Positions 4,370 to 10,214 of a stretch of 64,000 nucleotides of DNA are shown one piece after another. A program made the position numbers and the translations under genes. Under the pieces are notes generated by a model. It worked only from the letters and a program-made list of their open reading frames with translations. It searched no databases and was not told the DNA's origin. Within the stretch, counting starts at the first letter, position 1; each line of letters begins with the position of its first letter. The DNA comes from Oscillospiraceae bacterium (GTDB lineage Bacteria > Bacillota > Clostridia > Oscillospirales > CAG-272), in NCBI GenBank assembly GCA_015063895.1, contig SVTG01000002.1, forward strand, positions 62,001-126,000. Reading direction: 5' to 3'.

Positions 4370-4412
4370 AAAAAGGCAATATCAGACCATTAGGAATGAT
4401 ATTGCCTTTTTT
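4370..4412. terminator. Bidirectional hairpin terminator
   Basis: The stem AAAAAGGCAATATCA pairs with TGATATTGCCTTTTT around a ~12-nt loop. A-run and T-run on the two sides allow function on both strands. It lies where a minus-strand terminator for the spoIVB-like fragment would be expected and resembles the terminator beside intact spoIVB (9121-9165). Confidence 0.7.
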
Positions 4413-5000
4413 GGCGGACGACCGATGGTCGCCTCTACGGCGTTGAGGGTATGGCTTGTAGGGGCGCGCATGGCGCGTCCGTTTACGACGCCAAATTGCC
4501 CGTCTGTGCGAGCATATTTTCAATAATTTTGGCGGACGACCGATGGTCGCCCCTACGGGGTTCAGGGTATGGCTTGTAGGGGCGCGCATGGCGCGTCCGT
4601 TTACGACGCCAAATCGCCCGTCTGTGCGAGCATATTTTCGATAATTTTGGCGGACGACCGATGGTCGCCCCTATGGGGTTGAGGGTATGGCTTGTAGGGG
4701 CGCGCATGGCGCGTCCGTTTACGATGCCAAATCGCCCGTCTGTGCGAGCATATTTTCGATAATTTTGGCGGACGACCGATGGTCGCCCCTACGGGGTTGA
4801 GGGTATGGCTTGTAGGGGCGCGCATGGCGCGTCCGTTTACGATGCCAAATCGCCCGTCTGTGCGAGCATATTTTCGATAATTTTGGCGGACGACCGATGG
4901 TCGCCTCTACGGCGTTGAGGGTATGGCTTGTAGGGGCGCGCATGGCGCGTCTGTTTACGATGCCAAATCGCCCATCTGTGCGAGCATATTCTCAATAAAA
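4413..5000. repeat. Five tandem copies of a 118-bp repeat
   Basis: Units start at 4413, 4531, 4649, 4767 and 4885, always 118 bp apart, with a few substitutions per unit. Each unit carries a 'GTAGGGGCG...' dispersed-repeat core and, on the minus strand, codons reading 'IIENMLAQTGDLAS' plus stop. These match the 3' end of a spoIVB-like gene. The ORFs listed over this array (74-aa family 'MRAPTSHTLN...') are products of the repeat rather than genes. Confidence 0.92.
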
Positions 5001-5041
5001 ATTCCGTATCCCACGGTGGGATCATTGATCAGCACGTGCAG
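4955..5041 (-). pseudogene. 3' fragment of a second spoIVB-like gene
   Basis: The minus-strand frame reads 'HVLINDPTVGYGIFIENMLA' followed by 'QMGDLAS' and stop. Intact SpoIVB in this window ends 'HVLIGNPTTGYGIFIENMLN'. Only ~28 codons remain, with an in-frame stop immediately upstream. The last codons are duplicated in each of the five tandem repeat units. It is clearly homologous but not a recent copy, because the C-terminal residues differ. Confidence 0.8.
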
Positions 5042-5220
5042 TTACCATATTCCGCTTCGCTCCATGGCAAGCTTGCTTTGCAAGCATTGCGCGCCGACGA
5101 GCGGAGTGCATCGCACCAAGCGGTAACGCTTGCACCGCAAAGGAGTATAATGGGCTACCGCTCAGGAATGTGGTGGGTAAAGGACAACAGTTTTTAACTA
5201 AAAATTCATATTTCTTTGCA
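5042..5220. other. Gene-free interval with short inverted repeats
   Basis: No credible ORF. It contains several short palindromes such as GCAAGCTTGCTTTGCAAGC and AGCGGTAACGCTT, resembling decayed extragenic palindromic repeats. It lies between the spoIVB fragment and the 3' end of the TPR/CFI-box gene. Confidence 0.5.
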
Positions 5221-6474
5221 TTACCAATTTTTATCTTCGTAAGGCGTGTCTTCAACACCATTAGATTGAAGCTTTGCAACCATACGGTCAAGCTTGCCTT
5301 TCCAAAGCTTTTTAAACCAATTTGTGTTGCCAAACCACTTTACAAGAGTAGGGCTGATTGCATAGTATGTACGAATGAACAATCTTCCGTACCAAGTAGA
5401 TCCGAGCGTGTCATCACGATAACGACGAAGCGTCCATACCTGCGGACAATCGTAAGAGCCGTATACACAAGTTGCAATGTAGCAGCCAGCATTTTTCTTT
5501 ACGGTTGGACGATTAGGAATAACATAACTAGGATTAATTTCTTTGATTTTTTCGTGATATCCCATCATCTCGTCAATAAGTTTCTGCCTAAATTCAGTCG
5601 TTAAAGTAAATTCTCTTGAATAACCACCGTTTCTATATGTGTAGGAACAGGAATCTACCACATTTTGTATAATCAAAATTAAGTTTTTATATCGTCCAAC
5701 ATCTGATTGCTTATCATCATCACACAAATCTATTGCCGCTTTAAGTATCATTATACATGACGCACAGCGTTCTGTAAATGTTTCCCAAATGTGTTTTGAT
5801 GGATGCTCCGAGTGTTGGTAATCTTTGGTGATGACATTTTCCCATGCAGAGCAAACAGCGTCATTCATCAAAGAAGCTACTTTTTTGTAAAATTCAGTAG
5901 AAGCGACACCACATTTTTTTAACAGCAGCAATAAATACTGCGCTGTCATTTTTATATTATCTAAAATATCAGACGAATTTTCTCTAGAAGGATACTCGGC
6001 AAAATTATTACAACATAGTTTTATTAAAGCAGTTGATAATGCTGATATCTCAATAACTGCTTCTGTTTTGATTTCTTTAAGCTTATCCGCGGGGGCATTG
6101 TCAATTGCTTTGGTAAAACAATTAACACTTTCTTCTATTCGAATTTTTCGCAAAGTTGATTGCCAACCGGCTGCTTTTCCTTTTAAAAACCAAGCTCTAT
6201 AATATGTTGGATCTATCTCAATTATCTTGTTGCAGTATATTTCCGCTTCTTTCTTGTTCCCGGCATCATACGCATTTTCAGCCATAGTATAATAGTTATC
6301 GATTTTAGAGGAATCATCCACTCTGACGGTTCCCGTGACCTCCACTGTCCCCTCAATCATCATTTTCTTGGCTTCTTCAACAGAATATTTTGTTCCGCAC
6401 GGTTGGCATACAAAAAATCCGTCCTGCTTTACAAGGTCTGTGCTTCCACACATTTCACAAGTTAATTGTTTCAT
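5221..6474 (-). CDS. Zinc-ribbon/TPR/CFI-box protein
   Basis: A 417-residue protein and last gene of the five-gene minus operon. Residues ~5-30 form a TFIIB-like zinc ribbon ('CEMCGSTDLV...CQPCGTKYS'). Residues ~55-130 look like TPR helices ('YYTMAENAYDAGNKKEAEIYC', 'YYRAWFLKGKA'). The middle is a long helical region of unknown fold. Residues ~330-400 match the CFI-box C-terminal domain: 'CYIATCVYGSYDCPQVWTLR' then 'LFIRTYYAISPTLVKWFG'. SD GGAGG precedes ATG. CFI-box domains occur at the C-termini of diverse bacterial proteins and their biochemical role is unclear to me. Domain calls are firm; function is unknown. Confidence 0.75.
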   Translation of the reverse strand: MKQLTCEMCGSTDLVKQDGFFVCQPCGTKYSVEEAKKMMIEGTVEVTGTVRVDDSSKIDNYYTMAENAYDAGNKKEAEIYCNKIIEIDPTYYRAWFLKGKAAGWQSTLRKIRIEESVNCFTKAIDNAPADKLKEIKTEAVIEISALSTALIKLCCNNFAEYPSRENSSDILDNIKMTAQYLLLLLKKCGVASTEFYKKVASLMNDAVCSAWENVITKDYQHSEHPSKHIWETFTERCASCIMILKAAIDLCDDDKQSDVGRYKNLILIIQNVVDSCSYTYRNGGYSREFTLTTEFRQKLIDEMMGYHEKIKEINPSYVIPNRPTVKKNAGCYIATCVYGSYDCPQVWTLRRYRDDTLGSTWYGRLFIRTYYAISPTLVKWFGNTNWFKKLWKGKLDRMVAKLQSNGVEDTPYEDKNW

Positions 6475-6488
6475 GGTTTCCTCCGTAT

Positions 6489-6686
6489 TTATAATCTTTT
6501 TTGTCCTTTAACCGTAATTAAATATCTTATCTCACCTGTATCCGAAGGCGTTGTTTCAATAATACATCCACCATCAAGAGCTTTTTGTATTAGAACGGGT
6601 GTAATTCCTTGTATCTTTAACAATCTTTTTCTCGTGACGGGAACTCCAAACGAAAAGTTAATTAACAATTTATACAATTCATCCAT
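6489..6686 (-). CDS. Small hypothetical protein, possible winged helix
   Basis: A 65-residue ORF whose start overlaps the end of the preceding gene by 8 nt and has GAGGGGGA upstream. The sequence 'PVTRKRLLKIQGITPVLIQKAL' followed by 'GEIRYLITVKGQKRL' suggests helix-turn-helix plus beta-wing, as in winged-helix proteins, but it is short. It has no Cys pair for metal binding. The tight coupling supports a real gene; function is unknown. Confidence 0.5.
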   Translation of the reverse strand: MDELYKLLINFSFGVPVTRKRLLKIQGITPVLIQKALDGGCIIETTPSDTGEIRYLITVKGQKRL

Positions 6687-6891
6687 TTTTTACGTCCCCC
6701 TCTTCATAAAAATCACATTTTGCCGCAGAACTGCACTTGTCCTTCCAAACAGGAGATTGTTCATTTGTGCAATATCGGTTAGGTGCTTTTCCTACTGCAA
6801 AAATACAACGAGAAGGATGCCTACGCTTACCATCAGATTTTAACGTTACCAGGTGTGCAGGACATCCCTGCATATCTCTTACTCTTGCCAT
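6679..6891 (-). CDS. Small cysteine-containing protein
   Basis: A 70-residue ORF between the membrane protein gene (7 bp away) and the 65-aa gene it overlaps. Five Cys occur: 'MQGCPAH', 'SRCIFAVG', 'NRYCTN', 'KDKCSS' and 'AKCDFYEEG'. The spacing recalls the 71-aa Cys-rich protein at 2774, which also ends in a Cys followed by a Tyr-Glu, but I cannot show homology. Likely metal-binding by composition; function unknown. Confidence 0.5.
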   Translation of the reverse strand: MARVRDMQGCPAHLVTLKSDGKRRHPSRCIFAVGKAPNRYCTNEQSPVWKDKCSSAAKCDFYEEGDVKNG

Positions 6892-6898
6892 AAAAACC

Positions 6899-7567
6899 TC
6901 ATTTCAAAATTTTGCACTTTTTATTTCGCTCAGTAAGTAATGTATTAATCTCTACAACAAGTGTCTTCTTATCCACCGCCGTTTTCATTTCCTCAACCTT
7001 GGCTGTGATTCTTGATTCCAAGTCACCCAGCTTTTCGTGGCTCATCGGGTCGCTAAAACGGACTTGTTCGGCAAGCTTTTTGAGTGCCGCTTTGGTTTCA
7101 GCGTCTGTTTCAGTTTCAACAAGAATTTCAATATCGGTTTGCAGGAATTGGATAAATACACGCTTTACCTTGATTTTTTCCTCTACACGGTTGATTTCCT
7201 TTGCGCCCGCCTGACCTGCAATAACACACAGGGCAGAGATATCAAGGATAATTACGCATATCACAACTGCCAACCATGCGGGAAGCGTCGGGAAGATCAT
7301 AAAGACCGCAAAGGCAATCAGTTGAATGATCAGATAAGTTATTCCAACGTGAACAACGGGAATGCCAAGGAATTTGCTTTTCAACGTATCCTTTTTACCA
7401 AAGGCAATCTTCCACAATGGAATTTGTACTGCAAAGGCTACAACCGCGAAAACGTATGCCGCAAAGAACGTGGCAGTTTTTTCGGTAGGGATTACAAATG
7501 CAATGACGTTAAATAAAACAAATACAATACCAAGGGCAAGATAAGACTTTAAATTATTCTTTTTCAT
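6899..7567 (-). CDS. Membrane protein with cytosolic coiled-coil tail
   Basis: A 222-residue protein starting 3 bp after the SPFH gene stops, so translationally coupled. Four hydrophobic segments are visible at ~9-25, ~33-52, ~70-90 and ~97-117. They are followed by a charged helical tail with a predicted coiled coil ('LVETETDAETKAALKKLAEQV', 'LGDLESRITAKVEEMKTAV'). I recognise no named family. The coiled-coil tail next to an SPFH scaffold protein suggests the two form a membrane-associated complex; this is inference. Confidence 0.65.
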   Translation of the reverse strand: MKKNNLKSYLALGIVFVLFNVIAFVIPTEKTATFFAAYVFAVVAFAVQIPLWKIAFGKKDTLKSKFLGIPVVHVGITYLIIQLIAFAVFMIFPTLPAWLAVVICVIILDISALCVIAGQAGAKEINRVEEKIKVKRVFIQFLQTDIEILVETETDAETKAALKKLAEQVRFSDPMSHEKLGDLESRITAKVEEMKTAVDKKTLVVEINTLLTERNKKCKILK

Positions 7568-7570
7568 TGC

Positions 7571-8758
7571 TTATCCCCCTCTCTTTGTACCGCATTTGGG
7601 GCAGAACTTACCGGGGCGCTCAAATTGATAGCCGCAATTTCTGCAAACATTATCGGGAATAGCTACCTTTGTTCCGCACTCGTCGCAAAATGCCGCGCCA
7701 GGTGTAAGCTTTGCACCGCAATTTTCACAGAAAGTAGATGGACAATCGGGGACGCCTGTCCCTACAGGTTGCGTATCTGTTCCGTTAAACGCCGTATTGA
7801 CCGCGCCGCCGACCATATTGGCAATGCCACCCCCAACACCAGCCATCATACCGAGACCAATTCCCATATTTGTGAACTGTCCCGCACCTTCGTTTTTAGC
7901 AGCGTCTTGCGCAACGTCGAATCCGCGCTCTTGCTGATAGGTATATCCTTCTTGTGCTCGTTTGGTAGCCTGTGCCTGAGAGTCGATAACAACCTTTTGA
8001 GCTTCTGTTTGTGCGTGAATGATATCAGTCTGCTGTTGTAACTTGGCTTCGGCAATATCCGCGTACTGACGGAAGTGTAACTCCTTAAAGCGTTCGTATT
8101 GAGGATCTCCGTCGGGTTTTACAATAGTAGTAACGTAGAAACGACTGAGATTGATGCCGTATTCAAGGAAATCATCGATCAGTTTTTCGTGTATATCATT
8201 TGAAAAGACTTCCAACTGCTCGTCAATTTCAAAAATGTTGATGGCGTTCTGTCGCATTGTCTGCGCCATATAGGTCTTGACCTTGGTCATCAGTACCGCG
8301 CGGAAATACGTAACAAGACTTTGACGGTCAAGATAGTTTTCCGTACCGACAAGCTTGATGAGAAGCTTTCGGGAATCCTCAACGCTGAGTGTCATTTCTC
8401 CCGATGCGCCAATGGAGATCGGAAACTTATAGGTTGGTTCTACGTACTGAACCTTAGAGTCTGTACCCCATCGGATTGCCATCTGTTCGGTTTTGTTTAT
8501 AAAATAAACCTCACAATGGAACGGTGTCTGTCCACCCGTAGGAATATTGATTATTCTACGTAGCAGCGGAATGTTCTGCGTTTCAAGCGTGTGTCGTCCC
8601 GCACCGAATAAGTCAAGTGCTTGACCATTTGCAAAAAACACGGCTTCTTGCGATTCGTGGACGATCAGTTGCGAAGTCGTATTAAAATCTTCGCACGGAT
8701 GCTTCCATATAAAGGTGCTATTGTCGCCTTCATATTTGATAATATCGGCTATTGCCAT
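7571..8758 (-). CDS. SPFH-domain protein with C-terminal double zinc ribbon (YdjI-like)
   Basis: First gene of the operon, 395 residues. Residues ~25-250 form an SPFH (stomatin/prohibitin/flotillin) domain like that of Bacillus YdjI ('AVFFANGQALDLFGAGRHTL', 'INLSRFYVTTIV'). A helical segment follows ('KLQQQTDIIHAQTEAQKVV'), then a Gly-rich hydrophobic stretch ('GMGIGLGMMAGVGGGIANMV'). At the end are two zinc ribbons ('CENCGAKL...CDECGT' and 'CRNCGYQF...CPKCGT'). In Bacillus, YdjI works with PspA and YdjGH at stressed membranes; no PspA is present here. A strong promoter sits ~45 bp upstream. The fold is firm; the membrane-stress role is by analogy. Confidence 0.8.
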   Translation of the reverse strand: MAIADIIKYEGDNSTFIWKHPCEDFNTTSQLIVHESQEAVFFANGQALDLFGAGRHTLETQNIPLLRRIINIPTGGQTPFHCEVYFINKTEQMAIRWGTDSKVQYVEPTYKFPISIGASGEMTLSVEDSRKLLIKLVGTENYLDRQSLVTYFRAVLMTKVKTYMAQTMRQNAINIFEIDEQLEVFSNDIHEKLIDDFLEYGINLSRFYVTTIVKPDGDPQYERFKELHFRQYADIAEAKLQQQTDIIHAQTEAQKVVIDSQAQATKRAQEGYTYQQERGFDVAQDAAKNEGAGQFTNMGIGLGMMAGVGGGIANMVGGAVNTAFNGTDTQPVGTGVPDCPSTFCENCGAKLTPGAAFCDECGTKVAIPDNVCRNCGYQFERPGKFCPKCGTKRGG

Positions 8759-8785
8759 AGCGTTCTCCTTTTCAAAACAGATGCG

Positions 8786-8855
8786 GGCTATTTATAGCTC
8801 GTATTGTATCATATATAGCCTATTTTGTCAAGTGTTTTGGGCTATAATTAGTCTA
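8786..8855. promoter_or_regulatory. Divergent control region with repeated GGCTAT palindromes
   Basis: Three related sites surround the operon promoter: GCTATTTATAGC (8787-8798), ATATATAGCC (8811-8820) and GGGCTATAATTAGTC (about 8840-8854). Each is a full or half GGCTA...TAGCC dyad. One lies downstream of the operon -10, one in its spacer, and one over the likely -10 (TATAAT 8843-8848) of the divergent XRE gene. This placement suits repression of both directions by that XRE protein. Confidence 0.5.
8803..8831 (-). promoter_or_regulatory. Sigma-A promoter of the SPFH operon
   Basis: On the minus strand TTGACA (8831-8826) and TACAAT (8808-8803) are separated by exactly 17 bp. This near-consensus promoter reads into the SPFH gene and the four genes after it. 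Confidence 0.85.
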
Positions 8856-8883
8856 AAATCACGAAAGAGGATATTATATAGAT

Positions 8884-9120
8884 ATGTATACGGCTGTGAA
8901 AAACAGAATTTTGCAATTGCTTGGTGAAAAGAGAATGTCAATACACCGCCTTGCGATGGAATCGGCTGTCGCGCCATCGTCTATAAAAAATATACTTTAT
9001 GGAAAAAGTCAAAATCCCGGAATCGTTACATTAAAGATGCTTTGCGACGGATTTGGGATAACGATTGTTGAATTTTTTGACACTGAAGAATTCAGGAATT
9101 TAGAACAGGAAATTCAATAA
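8884..9120 (+). CDS. XRE-family transcriptional regulator
   Basis: A 78-residue single-domain Cro/CI-type HTH: 'SIHRLAMESAVAPSSIKNIL' is the HTH core, followed by 'TLKMLCDGFGITIVEFF', typical of helices 4-5. It is divergent from the SPFH operon across 125 bp containing repeated palindromes, which makes it the probable local regulator. It ends '...FRNLEQEIQ', almost the same C-terminus as the second XRE gene at 31424 ('FCNLEQEIK'), so the two are probably paralogues. AGAGGA lies a little far (13 nt) from the ATG, so the start is slightly uncertain. Confidence 0.85.
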   Translation: MYTAVKNRILQLLGEKRMSIHRLAMESAVAPSSIKNILYGKSQNPGIVTLKMLCDGFGITIVEFFDTEEFRNLEQEIQ

Positions 9121-9165
9121 AACAAGGCAATCTCATCCAAGTTGATGAGATTGCCTTGTTATTAT
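9121..9165. terminator. Bidirectional terminator between XRE gene and spoIVB
   Basis: The stem CAAGGCAATCTCATC pairs with GATGAGATTGCCTTG around a short loop. It separates convergent genes. The stem start AAGGCAAT(C/A)TCA is shared with the terminator at 4370-4412. Confidence 0.8.
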
Positions 9166-10214
9166 CCTGCCTTCGCCATGGGAATTTGCGCAGCATTTAA
9201 CATATTCTCAATAAAAATTCCGTACCCCGTGGTGGGGTTGCCGATCAGCACGTGGGTAATGGCGCCGACGAGCTTTCCGTTTTGAATGATCGGGCTGCCG
9301 CTCATACCCTGCACGATGCCGCCTGTTTTTTCAAGCAGCGCTTCGTCGGTGACGGTAACGGTAAAGCACTTGTTATCCTTGGCTGCGCGGTGAATATCCG
9401 AAATTTTCACCGTGTATTCCTGCGGGCCCTCATCGTCAAGCGTGCACCAGCAGGTAGCAACGCCCTCGTGCAGCTCGTCGCGGTGACCGACGGGCAACAG
9501 ACCCGCTGTGGTCGGCTGCGGATCGGTCAGCACACCAAATACGCCACAGGGGGTGTTGGTGGTCAGCGCACCGATTTTGGCAGCTGTAAATTGCCCCTTT
9601 AATTCGCCCGGGGTGCCTACCGCACCGCGCTTTACGTCATGGATGGATACGCCCATGACGGTGCCGCGCGACAGTGGAACAAGACAGCCGCTGGCGCCGT
9701 CGCAGATCCCGTGACCAAGGCCGCCGAAGTCTTTGCCGTTTGCGTGGATATAGGTGACGGTGCCGATGCCCGCACCCGTATCACGCACCCAAAGGCCGCA
9801 TCGCCAATGTCCGTCGCTGTCACACGCAAGAGGAGAAAGCGTAACGCTTTTTACTTCCTCGTCGCGCCGCAGCGTCAGCGTCAGCGGTGCTTCTTTCCCG
9901 TTTTCAATCATTTCTGCCAATGCTTTTGCGCTCTCAACGCTTTGGCCGTTTATTTTGGTGATACAGTCACCCGGTCGCACACCTGCCGCCTTGGCTGGAT
10001 TTTTGGCGTGCCCGCCCGAGGTCACGTCACAGTAACCGACCACCATAATGCCGTCTGTTACGTAGCGTACGCCAAACGCGCCACCCCCGACAAATACGTG
10101 TTCGCGCTGTGGCAAAGCGGCACCGACGGGCAATAGCAGTGCGCAGAGCAAAACGCTACATAATAAAAGAGCAAGCAGGGCCTTAGCGCTTGTTTTTTTA
10201 AAATTTCTGTTCAT
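9162..10214 (-). CDS. spoIVB: SpoIVB peptidase (S55 family)
   Basis: A 350-residue protein with SD GGGAGGAAG. A signal/anchor helix (~10-32) is followed by a PDZ domain (~75-130, 'AAGVRPGDCITKINGQSV') and the S55 serine peptidase domain, with the catalytic His in 'GLGHGI' and Ser in 'QGMSGSPI'. SpoIVB is made in the forespore, is secreted into the intermembrane space and cleaves SpoIVFA to trigger pro-sigma-K processing in Bacillus. The usual neighbour spo0A is absent here. A degenerate 3' piece of a second copy lies at 4955-5041. The protein is shorter than the Bacillus enzyme (~425 aa) but both domains are intact. Confidence 0.9.
   Translation of the reverse strand: MNRNFKKTSAKALLALLLCSVLLCALLLPVGAALPQREHVFVGGGAFGVRYVTDGIMVVGYCDVTSGGHAKNPAKAAGVRPGDCITKINGQSVESAKALAEMIENGKEAPLTLTLRRDEEVKSVTLSPLACDSDGHWRCGLWVRDTGAGIGTVTYIHANGKDFGGLGHGICDGASGCLVPLSRGTVMGVSIHDVKRGAVGTPGELKGQFTAAKIGALTTNTPCGVFGVLTDPQPTTAGLLPVGHRDELHEGVATCWCTLDDEGPQEYTVKISDIHRAAKDNKCFTVTVTDEALLEKTGGIVQGMSGSPIIQNGKLVGAITHVLIGNPTTGYGIFIENMLNAAQIPMAKAG

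Follow-up and report, generated by a model that had tools for sequence, protein, structure and literature searches.

A mobile SPFH/four-transmembrane module with exchangeable zinc-ribbon partners and a possible role in conflict in gut Clostridia

Organization of the locus

The locus described here lies in a stretch of 64,000 nucleotides (the window) of contig SVTG01000002.1 from an Oscillospiraceae bacterium (GCA_015063895.1), whose assembly amounts to 1.86 Mb and is 93% complete. It comprises a minus-strand operon of five genes, headed by an SPFH gene, and a divergent XRE regulator. Three of the five genes, which encode the SPFH protein, a four-transmembrane (TM) protein of a family called TM4 here and a zinc-ribbon protein, form a module that is found again in many other genomes, and in which the third gene is exchanged under a kept SPFH/TM4 core. 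The six genes had been pointed out in a sequence-only reading of the window; all of their open reading frames (ORFs) were found at the coordinates given below, and profile searches bore out the zinc ribbons and the CFI box, and AlphaFold2 modelling the four membrane helices.

The first gene of the operon (7571-8758, minus strand) encodes an SPFH (Band_7_1) protein of 395 amino acids (aa) that matches PF13421 (E=1e-35) and carries a C-terminal double zinc ribbon (PF12773 in the Pfam search, E=6.7e-10, residues 344-390); among its relatives this tail consists of zinc ribbons or is SHOCT-like. No N-terminal membrane segment was seen in the window SPFH protein. The TM4 gene follows (6899-7567, minus strand), and the AlphaFold2 model of its 222-aa product (mean predicted local distance difference test, pLDDT, 89) has four membrane-length helices, the fourth of which runs on into a cytosolic helical bundle. 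TM4 gave nothing above threshold in Pfam, NCBIfam or PADLOC, and searches of the PDB by sequence and by fold found no match among solved structures. It is likely the membrane anchor of the SPFH protein. The last gene (5221-6474, minus strand), which is the third gene of the module, encodes a protein with an N-terminal zinc ribbon (C6, C9, C23 and C26), a TPR/helical middle and a CFI-box C-terminus (residues 331-417). The CFI box was recognised in the NCBIfam search (CFI_box_CTERM, NF041770, E=5.7e-20 over residues 331-399); the zinc ribbon and the TPR were below threshold in the profile searches, with E of about 1e-5.

Two small genes on the same strand lie between TM4 and the third gene, encoding a Cys-rich protein of 70 aa (6679-6891; a weak two-CW match, E=0.005) and, in an open frame that overlaps the former by 8 bp, a protein of 65 aa (6489-6686); neither has a curated family above threshold. 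The operon is tightly packed, with intergenic gaps of 3, 7, -8 and 14 bp, and the GC content of the unit is 0.40, as compared with 0.52 in the whole window. On the plus strand, the XRE regulator of 78 aa (8884-9120; HTH_26, E=1.9e-8) faces the operon across a candidate promoter, TTGACA-17-TACAAT with an extended -10 (8803-8831, minus strand), as had been read from the sequence. The promoter is assigned by its match to the consensus, and the region shows no excess of promoter-like sites over shuffled sequences. An imperfect inverted repeat, GGCTATTTAT/ATATATAGCC, that spans the promoter (8786-8820) may be the XRE operator.

Linkage and distribution of the core genes

The TM4 profile and PF13421 were each searched independently across the class (243 genomes). 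At E<1e-7, TM4 gave 20 matches, every one of which adjoins a PF13421 match; the distance is within 0.8 kb for 19 and 2.7 kb for the remaining one. TM4 is present in 18 of these genomes and PF13421 in 140, thus TM4 marks a particular SPFH subfamily. In the source family, TM4 occurs in 23 of 196 genomes, spread over 19 of 71 genera, and the SPFH gene stands directly before it in nearly every locus; among four genomes of the same genus as the window, none has it. An alignment-based search for loci with TM4 as the query was unproductive, as the sequences are too divergent.

A broad scan of one genome per species (85,462 species) returned hundreds of SPFH relatives, of which the best 80 were read. 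In these loci the order SPFH, TM4, zinc-ribbon protein is nearly universal. In particular, TM4 follows SPFH in 67 of the 72 loci with room for it, and four of the remaining five were called in a separate reading of the loci; a zinc-ribbon protein lies downstream of SPFH in 65 of the 72, and four of the seven loci lacking one have a TIR gene upstream instead. Most hosts of the three-gene module, which is scattered through gut Clostridia, are Lachnospiraceae, Oscillospiraceae or unnamed Clostridia; a few belong to Chloroflexota.

The complete linkage of TM4 to SPFH and the gene order shared across many families show that this is a real system with a conserved neighbourhood. The unit had been drawn as five genes plus the XRE gene, and this holds for the SPFH, TM4 and zinc-ribbon genes; the other three proved to be accessory and were rejected as core parts. 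Relatives of the XRE gene were found in about 10 loci, at or near SPFH, and those of the 70-aa gene in 5, each downstream of SPFH on the same strand. The 65-aa gene has a BLAST homologue in a near-identical contig only; an ORF of similar size occupies the same position in locus L028. A literature search with little cover of subscription journals found no paper on the SPFH/TM4/zinc-ribbon trio, nor was one found on SPFH with TIR or a zinc ribbon in defence. The trio appears to be undescribed; its parts are known domains and its logic resembles that of ydjGHI, which is discussed below.

Exchange of the third gene

The four cysteines of the N-terminal zinc ribbon (C6/C9/C23/C26) are invariant in all 78 third proteins collected, and the remainder of these proteins matches 36 Pfam families. 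TIR_2 is found in 20 of them, the CFI box in 19 and DUF6273 in 9; other types include LRR (LRR_5), RCC1, MORN, ankyrin, an HtrA-like protease (Trypsin_2), TM2, TPR and long coiled coils. In the CFI group both ends are nearly fixed, with a CFI box that is near-invariant across 17 third proteins, and between them lies TPR, ankyrin, LRR or unrecognised sequence. No literature on the CFI box was found. A glutamate in the motif WV[KR]NEW is kept in 23 of 23 TIR domains, and we take it to correspond to the catalytic glutamate of NADase TIRs (E642 of SARM1).

The exchange can be followed at the DNA level. In close pairs, SPFH and TM4 align at 78-92% over about 1.6-2.5 kb, in most cases reaching into the zinc ribbon, and similarity is then lost inside the third gene; CFI-type pairs (L054/L055, L058/L060, window/L029) align again over the 267-279 bp of the CFI box. 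Homology in the core and at both gene ends, with none in between, indicates that the middle of the third gene is exchanged under a stable core. Indeed, the CFI boxes of the window and of genome G112 are 93% identical and the remainder of the protein is different. When third-gene types were placed on the SPFH tree, the TIR type was clustered (6 changes needed vs 24.2 with shuffled labels) and is inherited in blocks; the corresponding numbers are 14 vs 16.7 for CFI, 17 vs 18.3 for the coiled-coil type and 21 vs 22.2 for the others, which thus switch along the tree at close to the shuffled rate. The CFI-box protein, which had been taken for a fixed partner in place of PspA and a TPM protein, is one among many such plug-in proteins.

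Two variants of the third gene were also observed. Large zinc-ribbon/TPR/TIR proteins that end in DUF6273, BspA-type LRR or RCC1 repeats are tied to SPFH-4TM in L036, L042, L046, L062, L067 and others, and at least two zinc-ribbon third genes stand in a row behind a single SPFH-4TM pair in L065 (8001-13613), L053 and L092.

Insertion at the spoIVB 3' end

The operon and its regulator lie within an insertion. On one side is an intact gene for an S1C-type peptidase (9162-10214, minus strand), which we presume from knowledge of the family to be spoIVB, and whose final codons, downwards of 9302, belong to the inserted DNA; on the other side is a displaced spoIVB 3' remnant, SGSP ... HVLINDPTVGYGIFIENML (4982-5162, minus strand; 84% identity over 19 codons), broken by a short insert. 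The junctions at 9303/9302 and 5163/5162 thus delimit a cassette of 4,140 bp (5163-9302, GC 0.408) that holds exactly the XRE gene and the five genes of the operon, and runs from a donor spoIVB 3' end to the TGTTGTCC...CTG end. Its distal end, AAAAACTGTTGTCCTTTACCCACCACATTCCTG (5163-5200, minus strand), is joined to AGCGG of the remnant, and both ends match the junction common to all spoIVB-fragment sites.

Such fragments of the spoIVB 3' end are present in about 17 of the 105 genomes searched in the family, with up to nine matches in one (G007), and the cargo between them is 1-5 kb long and unrelated, for example a Phd/Doc-like pair or AraC-plus-sugar genes. Fragments that reach the junction start at the same base, where a conserved AAAAnTGTTGTCCCTAcTTGACCACACTCGTG is joined to spoIVB from the codon after the Met of GMSGSP; intact spoIVB genes have native sequence at this position. 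In 2.1 Mb of fetched DNA the junction motif is found essentially only at spoIVB-type junctions, and shuffled sequence has none. The MarR gene and two ABC genes that flank the spoIVB-like gene are retained in relatives. In L029 (contig C80 of G112), from a different genus, an SPFH operon whose XRE gene differs and whose third gene is of the LRR-CFI kind lies beside spoIVB and the two ABC genes, in the same place as in the window; it has no recognisable junction and may be older.

The spoIVB fragment arrays suggest that DNA is inserted at this sporulation gene by an integron-like route that appears not to have been described. The likeness to integron gene cassettes concerns insertion only, and consists in serial cassettes without their own recombinase behind one attachment site. 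Unlike in integrons, the spoIVB site is a 3' coding end, each unit brings a replacement gene end and no intI-like gene lies alongside. An attC-like single-strand fold was not found at 8 spoIVB sites (z-scores +1.1 to -2.5, only one below -1), and no recombinase was recognised in the arrays read. Two candidates for a dedicated cassette enzyme were rejected, namely large serine recombinases, which several of the genomes with arrays lack, and a shared tyrosine recombinase that is Xer-like and general and occurs in nearly all 20 genomes, with or without arrays. No paper on spoIVB as an insertion site was found. The identical junction, TGTTGTCC...ACTCGTG joined to AGCGG, was seen in arrays of the window (4982-5200 and 9162-9303), L140, L141 and L170-L185. 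The short insert that breaks the displaced fragment contains the palindrome TTTGCAAAGCAA, at a similar spot in G000 and G037 (window 5040-5160; L141 about 1990-2120).

Mobile carriers and neighbouring genes

Copies of the module are also carried by other mobile DNA. One was found on pNP21, a 20.5-kb plasmid of Butyrivibrio fibrisolvens, next to a recombinase, hsdS (a restriction S subunit) and a YoeB/RelB toxin-antitoxin pair. Others occur in IMG/VR contigs amid capsid-, portal- or lysin-like genes, these phage calls being a reading of ORFs, and one prophage-like contig has an AbiD gene adjoining the insertion. Together with the cassette ends at spoIVB, these carriers agree with the earlier view of a transferable unit. 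A small serine resolvase lies upstream of the module in 9 of 83 loci. It was noted in the prophage-like and plasmid copies L163 (5192-9552), L165 (4859-11037) and L168 (4925-10053), and L163 and L165 have an extra gene of 153-162 aa inside the operon, HEPN-like in L165. In single loci only, SduA (L051) or a SIR2-like gene (L111) comes directly after the third gene.

Proposed function and alternatives

These data can be brought together in a model in which the SPFH protein, seemingly without a membrane anchor of its own, would be tethered to the inner membrane by TM4 and would oligomerise into a ring or cage; cages attached to the membrane are described for SPFH proteins (PMC11260169). The third protein would dock on this platform through its N-terminal zinc ribbon. 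The part of it that is exchanged, a middle made of repeats that bind proteins (TPR, ankyrin, LRR and others), would sense something variable at the membrane, most likely a product of a phage or another invader, and its output part, terminal or internal (a CFI box in the window, a TIR domain in about a quarter of copies), would act once the platform is triggered. The module and its XRE regulator would have reached the window genome as the 4,140-bp cassette, by site-specific insertion in the spoIVB 3' end.

The exchange of repeats between fixed ends, the patchy occurrence and the mobile carriers are best fitted by a conflict system, that is, by a mobile membrane module of three components in which an SPFH/4TM platform is equipped with exchangeable sensor/effector proteins for defence; the case for this reading is about evenly poised. 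Going one step further, we tentatively suggest that bacteria have here an immune receptor of a new class: an SPFH/4TM cage, anchored in the membrane, would be fitted with zinc-ribbon proteins whose sensors (TPR, ankyrin, LRR) and outputs (TIR, CFI box) are interchangeable, and would have spread by plasmids, prophages and, in one Clostridia family, the integron-like cassette route at the spoIVB 3' end.

Several points weigh against a role in defence. In PADLOC-DB 2.0.0 there is no convincing match for the five operon proteins; TM4 matches AbiEi at E=0.027 and the XRE protein matches capH at 1.9e-4, the other four giving none. The genes that flank the module are mostly housekeeping or mobile-element genes, and their comparison with controls gave no clear-cut enrichment in defence genes, since the count of PADLOC families matched, 84 for 98 flanking proteins vs 6 for 97 controls, reflects many models hitting few proteins. 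The structural model of the CFI box is of low confidence (pLDDT 36-74). Furthermore, the 80 loci were chosen by SPFH similarity and lean to the subfamily of the window, only the class-wide search being unbiased. As to known defence systems, the TIR versions of the third gene resemble TIR antiphage systems (the Thoeris ThsB/ThcB4 family, SpbK) in that they match TIR_2 and keep the glutamate at the catalytic position, and they match Thoeris_type3_ThcB4 weakly (best E 3.7e-7). Unlike in those systems, TIR is here part of a protein that also has a zinc ribbon and TPR and is linked to SPFH-4TM. The window operon has no TIR protein and is not a Thoeris system; no Thoeris type III paper bearing on the TIR versions was found.

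The closest comparison is with the pspA-ydjGHI operon of B. subtilis. There, the soluble SPFH protein YdjI depends on two membrane proteins, YdjG and YdjH, which place it at the membrane, and in turn recruits PspA (PMC8581546); YdjG combines zinc ribbons with a TM segment, as described with the domains of the YdjGHI partners (PMC11237479). Both systems have a PF13421-type SPFH protein with a C-terminal zinc ribbon and a zinc-ribbon protein in the operon (PMC8581546, PMC11237479), and the window SPFH protein would, like YdjI, depend on a membrane partner. By analogy, TM4 would replace YdjH, and the zinc-ribbon protein would replace YdjG plus PspA. The same logic of soluble SPFH protein, TM anchor and zinc-ribbon partner favours a PspA-independent envelope-stress module of the YdjGHI type, in which an anchored SPFH ring stabilises damaged membrane, the zinc-ribbon protein adapts it to different envelope proteins and phages play no role. 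However, PspA (PF04012) and a YdjH-type TPM domain (PF04536) each gave no match in the genome assembly, in which controls were detected, in agreement with the sequence-only reading, and membership of the pspA-ydjGHI (PSP) system was rejected. The likely anchor belongs to an unrelated four-TM family, and the module is mobile and patchy. Its zinc-ribbon protein is exchangeable, often with TIR, CFI or repeat domains, and in the window has one N-terminal zinc ribbon, TPR and a CFI box with no YpeB match, whereas YdjG has two zinc ribbons, a YpeB-like domain and a TM segment. Such a distribution, and a third gene that is swapped so fast, would be unusual for a housekeeping stress response, and the envelope-stress explanation is regarded as rather unlikely. 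Flotillin/stomatin-NfeD (YuaF/YqiJ) operons also pair an SPFH protein with a small multi-TM protein, but the window SPFH protein differs in its N-terminus, as noted above, and TM4 matches no NfeD model in Pfam or NCBIfam.

The module could also be cargo that serves its carrier (prophage, plasmid or cassette), altering the membrane so that superinfecting phages are kept out or the element is maintained. The presence of partition as well as toxin-antitoxin genes on pNP21, the copies in phage-like regions and the adjoining resolvases are consistent with this, but most copies are on ordinary chromosomal contigs with no element-wide genes near and no antitoxin-like pairing was seen, which makes such a role improbable. 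That unrelated scattered genes resemble an operon by chance or through assembly artefacts, as might be suspected from the many metagenome-assembled sources and from odd hosts that may be mis-binned (L066, Tannerellaceae; L088, Gastranaerophilales), is already refuted by the 20-of-20 linkage in independent genomes and by the complete plasmid of a named strain, which has SPFH and the next two genes in order, and can be given next to no credence.

SPFH proteins occur across all domains of life, and the purpose of the bacterial ones is poorly settled. With fixed partners, a fixed gene order and a swapped docked protein, what the platform responds to becomes testable by changing the third protein. 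If defence is the function, the module would represent a receptor with a novel architecture; as a stress scaffold, it would illustrate how scaffolds get re-specified. The cassette junction, in turn, would expose the insertion route at the sporulation gene.

The neighbouring repeat array

A tandem array of five copies of a 118-bp unit (window 4409-4998) adjoins the cassette region and had been taken to suggest a transferable unit. It was rejected as a sign of operon mobility: 34 copies of its core, GGGGCGACCATCGGTCGTCC, are present in the genome and form arrays on several contigs, thus the repeat is dispersed genome-wide and unrelated to the module.

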